Shown: positions 1 through 41,800 of the stretch, one piece after another
Layout: each line of letters starts with the position of its first letter
Position numbering within the stretch: the first letter of the stretch is position 1
Origin: Asterochloris sp. CNOR1
Lineage: Eukaryota; Chlorophyta; Trebouxiophyceae; Trebouxiales; Trebouxiaceae
Direction: 5' to 3'
Assembly: GCA_963969365.1 (NCBI GenBank)
Contig: OZ017758.1
Span: 1,550,001 to 1,614,000, forward strand
Length of the DNA: 64,000 bases
Notes under the pieces: generated by a model
Databases searched by the model: none
What the model was told of the DNA's origin: nothing
The model's input: only the letters and a program-made list of their open reading frames with translations
Program-made: the position numbers and the translations under genes

Positions 1-193
1 GGTCCCATCGGCATGCCCAGCACTTCCGAACATTGCTTGAGGAGCACCTGTGCTGCACTGCTTTCATAGACAGCCTATGCCCAGCTGCACTGCTTGCAGC
101 CACAAGCCGGCCCTATGGCATCTGCTTGAGCATTCAGCTTTCAAGCCATGCCAGCCTGCAATGAGCCTGCAATGAGTTAGGCACCCCATGCAG

Positions 194-545
194 ATCACAT
201 TCCACCTGGACAACAACAACGTCCTGACTGTGGAGGCGCGGGACCAGGACAGCGGCCGGCACCACTTGTGGAAGTCAAGTGGCGGCGCAGTGGTGGCCAA
301 CGGTGTCAGCGCCGCGGACTTGAACACCCAGGGTCACTATGTTGTAGGTGGGTCCACCAAGCCCCTAGTCTCATGCCTTGATGATCTGAGCCTGCTCCTC
401 CTGATGCTAGGGACTTGCAATTTGACTTTGTCGCCTAGTAATGTACTTCTGATACAAACTCAAAATGCTGCAGCCTGCTGAGTCAGCTGGCTCCTGCCCT
501 GCAGATTACGCCAATCACACAGCACAGCAGCCCATTGCAGCTTGA
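194..545 (+). CDS. SAXO-HSP70 fusion gene, 3' end only (copy 1, partial)
   Basis: Two last coding exons, 194-347 and 505-545, follow an intron that runs off the left edge. Exon 194-347 encodes the second half of an HSP70 substrate-binding beta domain: ITFHLDNNNVLTVEARD matches the conserved HSP70 stretch with the form ITFDIDANGILNVSARD. The donor after 347 (GTGGGT) and the acceptor before 505 join in frame to a short tail ending at TGA (543-545). The rest of the gene lies left of the window. A full version is at 19406-25710, and this copy differs from it by one Ser/Asn change in the exon. The exon is near-identical to 25359-25512. Confidence 0.75.
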
Positions 546-38800: not shown

Positions 38801-41800
38801 AGTACTGGCATCTGCTGCAGCTGGCAGGGGCAACTGGGGATGGGGCTCCTTCGAGGGAGCTGGGGGCGTGGTGCCTTCTGAGCTGCTGGCATCAGAGGTG
38901 CTGACACCTGCACTGTTGACCTCGCCAGCAAGCCTACTGGCAGCTGCCAGCTCCTGCTCAGCTGCGCTGTACAGGTGCAGCCCCACTGGGACAGCGGCAT
39001 TGCAGTGCCCCTGCAGCAGAAACAACCGGGCTGTTGGCCACCTGGGCCTTGCTCTGTACCCTGGCCGGACATTGCTACCAGACCTGGTGGCAATGCAAAT
39101 GCGCTACACGAGGGGCTGCTGTTGCACACAGGGTGCTGTGTGCGTCCAGATTGTAAGGCAAGACAAATGCTGTTCTGGCTTTGAACCCGCCACACACAGT
39201 GTAGTGCACAACTCCCCAAGCTGTGTGGCACTGCAGAGTGAAAGAACAATGACCACTGGTGGGTAAGTGTAGGTACGAATGAGTTACATGCTGATGTCAC
39301 AGGTCCTCATCGTTGCCATGCAAGAAGTGCAGGATGCAAGCACAAGTTACAACATTTAGTCACATGCGCTGACCTCCATGTTGACATCGCACGTCCCAAA
39401 CTCCACCGCGCAAGAGGTGGGCAGCTTAGGCTCTAATTTGTCCACGCGGAAGAAGATGAAGTCGTGCTGGCAACCCACCACAGCGCTGTCCTTGCTATAC
39501 AGGCTGTGAGCCAGGGCCTGCTGGCTGTTGTGGAAGCGCTTGCGGATGGCAAACACATCCCCCACCTGCAGCAGCCTGCAGCGTGCACCATCAGCTCCTG
39601 GGGGGTGGGAGGGGGGGGGGGGGGGGGGGGGGATGGTTGCGTGTGTGCACTGAGCACTGTCCAACATCGCCAGCAGTGGCCTGAAGCAGTAGTTTGCTCC
39701 CGTTCAGGGACATGCCGGGCCGCAGACCTCCAGCAAAGCGGTGCTGAGCTGGGATGTCTGGCTGCCAGCATGTCCAGCCCAAACATTAGCTGTGAGGCTC
39801 ACAGTTCATCATCACAGAATGCTGGCCTTGCACCGTGGGTGAAGCCGTCAGGCTGCCTCACCCGATGTGCTTTCACCTGTGAAGGGCTGCCATGTTGTCT
39901 TGCATCAGCCGGCAGGGACATCACCCGACTAACGCGCGCGTAGCATACATCAGCGCCAGGCACCTCACCTGGTGTGCTTCTGCAGATAGTCCTGAAGCAG
40001 CTGCACCATGGCATCATGCTCATCGTCCATGGCCTCGCCATCGTCCTCTGGGCCAGGCTCTGCAAGCCCCGGGGCTGCCCCCTGCCCAGCGCCTGCATCT
40101 GGCCGGGTCCCAGGCATGCCCGCCAAGCCAGGCAGGCCTGGCAGTCCACCTGGCGCGGCTGCACTCCCTGGCCCTGACCCTGCACACATGCAGGGAAGAT
40201 CTTGAACAGCAGCGAGGTCCAGCAGGTTGGTCGACCTGCCAGTTGCAGCCGTTGTGCTGTGCAGCCTCAGGCTCTCCTCCCACCCCTGGGCTGCACACGG
40301 CTGTGGCAGCCCGTTACCAACAGACTGCAAAAAGACTGTGGGGTTTCTTGCTATCACCTGGCTGTGACCCAGTCCCCCCTGGCCTGGGCTGAGCACCTGC
40401 TGCGCCAGGCCCGGTGGGAGCTGGGAGGCCTGGGTGCGCACCCGCAGCTCCTGGAGGCTCTGGCTCTGGAGCAGTCATGAGGAGGTTGGTTTCTGGGATG
40501 CTGATGTAGCCCAGCGTCAAGGACTCCGCTCGAGGGACCGCTGCGGGGTGGCGTCCTGCATGCAGCAGTCAGGTGTTATGATGCAGGCAGGCCATGAAGG
40601 GCTGTGTTGGACAGCTTAAGGCAGGTACACATGACTTGGAGGTGGCAGCTGGCAGCAACATGCAAGCTGTTGGTGTCGCGTTCTGCATGCAGCCACCATA
40701 TGTCGCGGTTGGGATTGTAGGCAGGCTGTGAGGGAACTGCTCAGGGCATGGCTGCTTCACGACATGCAGCCAATCTGGTTGGTAAGGTGCAAGCCAGACC
40801 ACCATGCTGTTGAGGTGCAACCCTCACCTGGCTTGAGGCTGGCCCACAGCTGGCTGGCAGCGGCAGACTCACTGCTAAGGCAGCAGCCAACCTGCTATCA
40901 CAGCTGCTACTGTCAGCAGCAATGTCACCTGCACATGCTGTGCACAGCCTTGAGGCAGCTGCATGCCGACCTGTCTGGGGTACCTCCAGCAGAGAAGGCC
41001 CCATCCCACGCTCAAAGTGCCGCAGGCGCCGAATGGCTACCTCCTCCGAGCTGACCACAGGCCCACATGCGCGCAGCGGCTGCTGAAGTGCCCCAGTCTG
41101 CTGGTGTCCACCACCATGGCCAGCAGGCAGCCCATTTGGCAATGCGTGTGGAGTGCCAGCCTCGCTGCTGTCAGGGGTCCTGTGCAGGCCTGCTGGCTGA
41201 CTGTGGCTGAGTGACTGAGAAGGTGAGGAGGCTGTTGCCAGCTCCTCGCCTGCTTCGGCAGCCAGGAAGGGGGCCAGGTGGTGACTCAGCCCCAGATTGA
41301 ATGCCAGCACGGGGGCCAGGTAGGCGGTGTCGTGCTGCCAGGCGTGGCTCTGTACTGCAGGAGAGCCCTCTGCTGCAGTGTGCAGGGGTGCGTCCACTGC
41401 CACAATGCGAGCAATGTGAACTGTGTCCCCTGGTGCGTGGGCTGCGTGGACCTACAGTGGGGGACAGCACTGTGTCAGCAAGCATCAGGGATGGGGAAGC
41501 CTTTGCTCAAGGTGCATGTACCTCCACAAGAGAGCCATGGACTACTTGCAAGCACCGCAGGGTCTGTGCAGTGACGCCGATCTCTGTGTGCACATCCCTG
41601 CTGGAGGGGGGGCTGCTGCCTGGTGCATTGTAGCGGCCCCTGCCAATCTGCTTGCTGCCTGCAGCTATGTTGGCATACTGCAATGGAACATTCAGTACAG
41701 CTGTTTTGAGGATGCACTCCGCACAGAGATCAGGGGCAGAGGACTTTGCAGGGACCGAGCTTGGCTGTCTCCTCAGGTCTGATAGAATCTGGGCAGCTCT

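Follow-up and report, generated by a model that had tools for sequence, protein, structure and literature searches.

A 16-kb repeat across a scaffold gap in an apparent green-algal assembly: probably a heterotype false duplication of a BTA1- and PEX6-like locus

A stretch of DNA of 64 kb, analysed here as a whole and referred to as the window, contains the same 16-kb sequence twice, with a scaffold gap between the two occurrences. This locus raises the question of whether the genome carries two copies of the genes involved, or whether one locus was represented twice when the contigs were assembled and scaffolded. Our analysis of the repeat geometry, the gene content and the differences between the copies suggests that the repeat is most likely a false duplication of the heterotype kind, in which untrimmed contig ends from different haplotypes were placed one after the other.

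The repeat and the gap between its copies

Self-BLAST within the 64-kb window revealed a single repeat pair, positions 1-16228 (copy 1) against positions 25166-41390 (copy 2), sharing 99.661% identity with 50 mismatches and 4 gap openings. Judged by the alignment, a match of such length and identity cannot be due to chance. The copies are arranged head to tail in the same orientation, and copy 1 begins with 278 and ends with 449 bases that are identical to copy 2. The 50 substitutions (34 transitions and 16 transversions) amount to 0.308% of aligned sites, or about one difference per 325 bases, and there are four indel events with sizes of 1, 1, 2 and 1 bases. These values agree with the original prediction, which had described the same two intervals as differing by roughly 0.3-0.4 percent substitutions and four small length changes. 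The largest indel event, of 2 bases, lies in a G-rich run that is 35 bases long in copy 1 (14437-14471) and 33 bases long in copy 2 (39600-39632).

The only run of Ns in the window, 200 Ns at positions 16229-16428, separates contig A, which ends with copy 1, from contig B, within which copy 2 continues without a break. The homology of copy 1 is unbroken up to position 16228, the final base before the gap. Thus, the duplicated pair flanks a gap on the same scaffold, an arrangement that characterizes heterotype false duplications. On the side of contig A, the homology reaches the very base that faces the gap; the partner of the first base of contig B would fall to the left of the window. The left limit of copy 2 at 25166 reflects the edge of the window and is not a repeat boundary. 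The first 8737 bases of contig B (16429-25165) showed no match to 25166-41390 or to 41391-64000 in a similarity search with 7-base words at an E value of 1e-3; their predicted partner is the DNA that adjoins the window on its left side. A perfect 13-base inverted repeat, with arms at 16452-16464 and 16506-16518 and a 41-base spacer, is located less than 100 bases from the start of contig B. The dip in GC content at 16001-18000 results largely from counting the 200 Ns.

Genes in and around the repeat

Gene models came from a small exon finder trained on the sequence itself, and their families were named by Pfam. The strictest setting of the finder fused same-strand neighbours into single models, which were split by hand using looser settings. 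When 10 open reading frames were first compared with Pfam, none was named above the curated cut-off, probably because the exons are short; one gave a weak Vps4_C match. When spliced proteins or parts of them were used, all eight matched something. Seven of them passed a curated cut-off, which a short methyltransferase-like exon at 30780-31016 in the BTA1-like gene did not reach. No match was found in Rfam at the gathering score.

Between the gap and copy 2, contig B encodes a predicted NAD-dependent epimerase (16636-19021, plus strand; PF01370, E 1.2e-17; home-made model) and a SAXO1/2-like axonemal microtubule stabilizer (19406-24465, plus strand; PF05217, E 6.5e-10; hand-split, with approximate extent). 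The product of the latter also matched the PDB sequence of stabilizer of axonemal microtubules 1. The hand-split HSP70-like gene that follows (24725-25710, plus strand; PF00012, E 4.7e-17) spans position 25166, and only its 3' part is present in copy 1 (188-545). Its model matches only positions 411-491 of the PF00012 profile, with no ATPase domain seen upstream, so that it could be a short HSP70 derivative or could reflect the limit of the home-made gene model.

Within the repeat are two minus-strand genes, split by hand from each other, for which the names BTA1 and PEX6 of the original prediction are retained, Pfam supporting the families. The BTA1-like betaine lipid synthase gene lies at 26153-31035 in copy 2 (PF11899, E 4.9e-104) and was modelled at 988-5918 in copy 1. 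Searching its protein against genome-contig and viral-contig collections identified no relative; four pattern-matching stretches were found in the genome contigs, none of which was confirmed. The PEX6-like AAA ATPase gene extends from 32865 to 42109 (PF00004, E 3e-27, from a 270-residue part). Its copy 1 counterpart lacks the 5' end and stops inside a predicted exon at 16228; in copy 2, this exon runs for a further 39 bases and is preceded in the gene by a 67-base first exon. The claim that copy 1 stops in a PEX6 exon at the first N while copy 2 runs on was thereby borne out. Over the BTA1-PEX6 stretch, 22 of the 26 exons of copy 1 share their borders with exons of copy 2, in which 27 were modelled. 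As far as can be seen in the window, the duplicated set therefore comprises the end of the HSP70-like gene, the BTA1-like gene and most of the PEX6-like gene. To the right, outside the repeat, are a xanthine dehydrogenase/aldehyde oxidase-like gene (42478-56119, plus strand; PF00941 and PF03450, from a 344-residue part, with weak 5' exons) and a MutS-family gene (56387-63997, minus strand; PF05190 above and PF00488 below the curated cut-off, from a 219-residue part).

The DNA of the window is gene-dense and intron-rich. Contig B has a GC content of 58.3%, the 75 predicted exons with a score of at least 6 have 61.7%, and the median intron is about 349 bases long (n=64). Together with the BTA1-like gene and the axonemal SAXO1/2-like gene, the GC content and intron length suggest a green alga with a flagellated stage. 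These features resemble those described for the lichen alga Asterochloris in the cited parts of PMC6652019, namely 98% of the nuclear genome at 56-62% GC, 9 introns per gene on average, and flagellated zoospores and gametes; this likeness of general features makes Asterochloris a guess at the source. Choricystis sp. was considered and set aside, as the chromosomes presented for it in PMC12141999 have 69.5-70% GC, against the 58.3% of contig B.

The possible position of a duplication junction

The main rival to an assembly origin is a genuine tandem duplication, its period 25.2 kb or more, the junction of which would lie in the unsequenced gap where the assembler broke; we regard this as unlikely. 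The order and orientation of the copies are those of a head-to-tail duplication, and their near identity is also what a tandem segmental duplication would give. However, the junction that such a duplication needs is absent from the sequenced DNA: none was found in the 24,965 bases between paired positions of the two copies. Since 16429-25165 matches neither copy 2 nor the DNA to its right, it is not a continuation of copy 1. Because, in addition, copy 1 matches copy 2 without a break, the junction of a true tandem duplication must fall inside the gap. The original prediction had held that a tandem duplication gives the same layout as overlapping contig ends; this stands for a junction inside the gap, but does not hold freely, given that the sequenced DNA contains none.

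How strongly this counts depends on the real length of the gap. For a uniformly placed junction and 24,965 sequenced bases around the gap, the chance that it falls inside the gap is 0.8% for a gap of 200 bases, 29% for one of 10 kb and 50% for one of 25 kb. The gap is probably a placeholder, whose real size may differ from its 200 Ns. A fixed size of 200 bases would be in keeping with YaHS-type scaffolding. In the part of PMC13173280 cited here, a YaHS-scaffolded assembly is described with 939 gaps totalling 187.8 kb, which implies 200 bases per gap, the size seen in the window. The figure of 0.8% thus weighs against a true duplication, but less so the longer the real gap is. Moreover, a repeat differing every 325 bases or so would be no hard case for accurate long reads, if such reads were used, which counts against a true tandem duplication. 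Should the duplication be real after all, which we consider improbable, it would have arisen recently, in tandem, would measure 25 kb or more and would carry BTA1 and perhaps a complete PEX6, either polymorphic or fixed, with its junction in the gap and both copies still under selection.

The DNA left of the window bears differently on the two explanations. The original prediction that absent homology there would refute both does not hold on reasoning. An overlap of contig ends needs homology as far as the partner of the first base of contig B, some 8737 bases beyond the left edge of the window, or to the start of contig A if this is closer, whereas the start of a tandem unit could lie at any point within those bases.

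Less probable still is that the end of contig A is a real dispersed duplicate from elsewhere, misplaced by a scaffolding error. Within the window, only the repeat and the scaffold order tie contig A to contig B, as this explanation would have it; however, the homologous stretches adjoin in the same orientation, like an overlap, which is not expected of a chance mis-join.

Differences between the copies and the source of the repeat

In the main gene model, restricted for this count to the pair of merged models that span the repeat, with exons scoring below 6 excluded, 13 of the 50 substitutions are coding. Nine of these are synonymous and four are replacements, where 30% would be expected to be synonymous (one-sided p = 0.004). 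How large this excess is varies with the gene model: when three exon sets were combined with three score cuts, giving nine settings, p ranged from 0.004 to 0.09 and the ratio of synonymous to replacement changes from 9:4 to 7:7, the loosest exon set giving 9:7, or 7:7 at the highest score cut. No coding change created a stop codon in any of the nine settings, and none of the four indel events falls in an exon of the main model. A one-base indel (5062 in copy 1, 30226 in copy 2) in a G-rich run, which is outside the coding sequence in the main model, lies inside a 5' BTA1-like exon (30059-30255) in two alternative models of copy 2; the copy 1 models do not have that exon form. Clustering of the substitutions was borderline, with p values of 0.050, 0.054 and 0.22 for bins of 500, 1000 and 2000 bases, respectively, and plays no part in the interpretation.

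With 34 of 50 substitutions being transitions, few indels and coding changes that lean towards synonymous ones, depending on the gene model, the differences look like natural variants in kind, as far as the alignment can tell. Two working paralogues under purifying selection would also fit, and the coding differences are thus compatible with a true tandem duplication. Errors of long reads are mostly indels, and errors are not expected to favour synonymous sites. The substitution-rich and synonymous-leaning differences therefore speak for a natural pair of haplotypes rather than for errors in the reads. A homotype false duplication, with the same molecule assembled twice and the differences being read errors, is hardly credible here: the copies do flank a gap where two contigs adjoin, which is where homotype overlaps are reported to occur in the consulted part of PMC8081667, but the differences are dominated by substitutions (50 against four indel events, 34 of the 50 transitions) and lean towards synonymous changes in the main model and in most of the nine settings.

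Taken together, a false duplication from two haplotypes is favoured because copy 1 is homologous to its last base, the pair flanks the sole gap, the gap has the size of a placeholder, the sequenced DNA holds no junction and the differences look natural. An overlap of contig ends predicts this layout directly, and the original proposal of overlapping, allelic and unmerged contig ends accordingly fits best, given the unbroken homology up to the gap and the lack of a sequenced junction. The primary features of false duplications listed in the cited passages of PMC9516828 are a gap separating the duplicated pair, which the window shows, together with half depth, discordant pairs and single-copy k-mers. 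The heterotype cases described in the passages drawn on from PMC8081667 and PMC9516828 resemble the window in having two haplotype-like copies on one scaffold with a gap between them, natural-looking differences and an extra copy of a gene cut short where a contig ends. Those cases come from vertebrates, whereas the DNA here is apparently from a green alga whose second haplotype possibly comes from a mixed sample, and the comparison covers the assembly sequence.

We propose that contig A would represent one haplotype, carrying the HSP70-like tail, BTA1 and PEX6 and ending in the middle of PEX6, and that contig B would represent the other, starting a short way upstream of the epimerase gene. 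With a difference about every 325 bases, the contigs may have been left unmerged by the assembler. Trimming of overlaps would then have removed neither end, and the scaffolder would have placed the contigs one after the other, inserting a 200-N gap of fixed size. The true overlap would be expected to extend over 16429-41390, about 24,962 bases, and the genome would have one copy of the locus per haplotype.

Either a diploid organism or several strains mixed in the sample may have supplied the two haplotypes. It counts against this explanation that most green algae have haploid vegetative cells; a clonal culture of such cells offers no alleles, and a diploid or a mixed sample must therefore be assumed. 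In the part of PMC12542154 cited here, the authors of a lichen study inferred that a single sample contained two haplotypes of the fungal partner, indicating that such samples can be mixed. Half coverage on each copy, which the original prediction took to mark alleles in a diploid or mixed assembly, would on reasoning be expected only for a diploid, whereas in a mixed sample the depths need only sum to the single-copy level.

The extra gene copies are thus probably not real. If they are kept, two genes of the BTA1-like kind and, besides the full PEX6-like gene, a truncated second one would enter the annotation, and a recent segmental duplication would be reported that probably does not exist. 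The finding is ordinary as biology and useful as an assembly correction; if it is true, two haplotypes differing by about 0.3% at this locus were present in the sequenced sample, which bears on the ploidy of the organism or on strain mixture in the sample.
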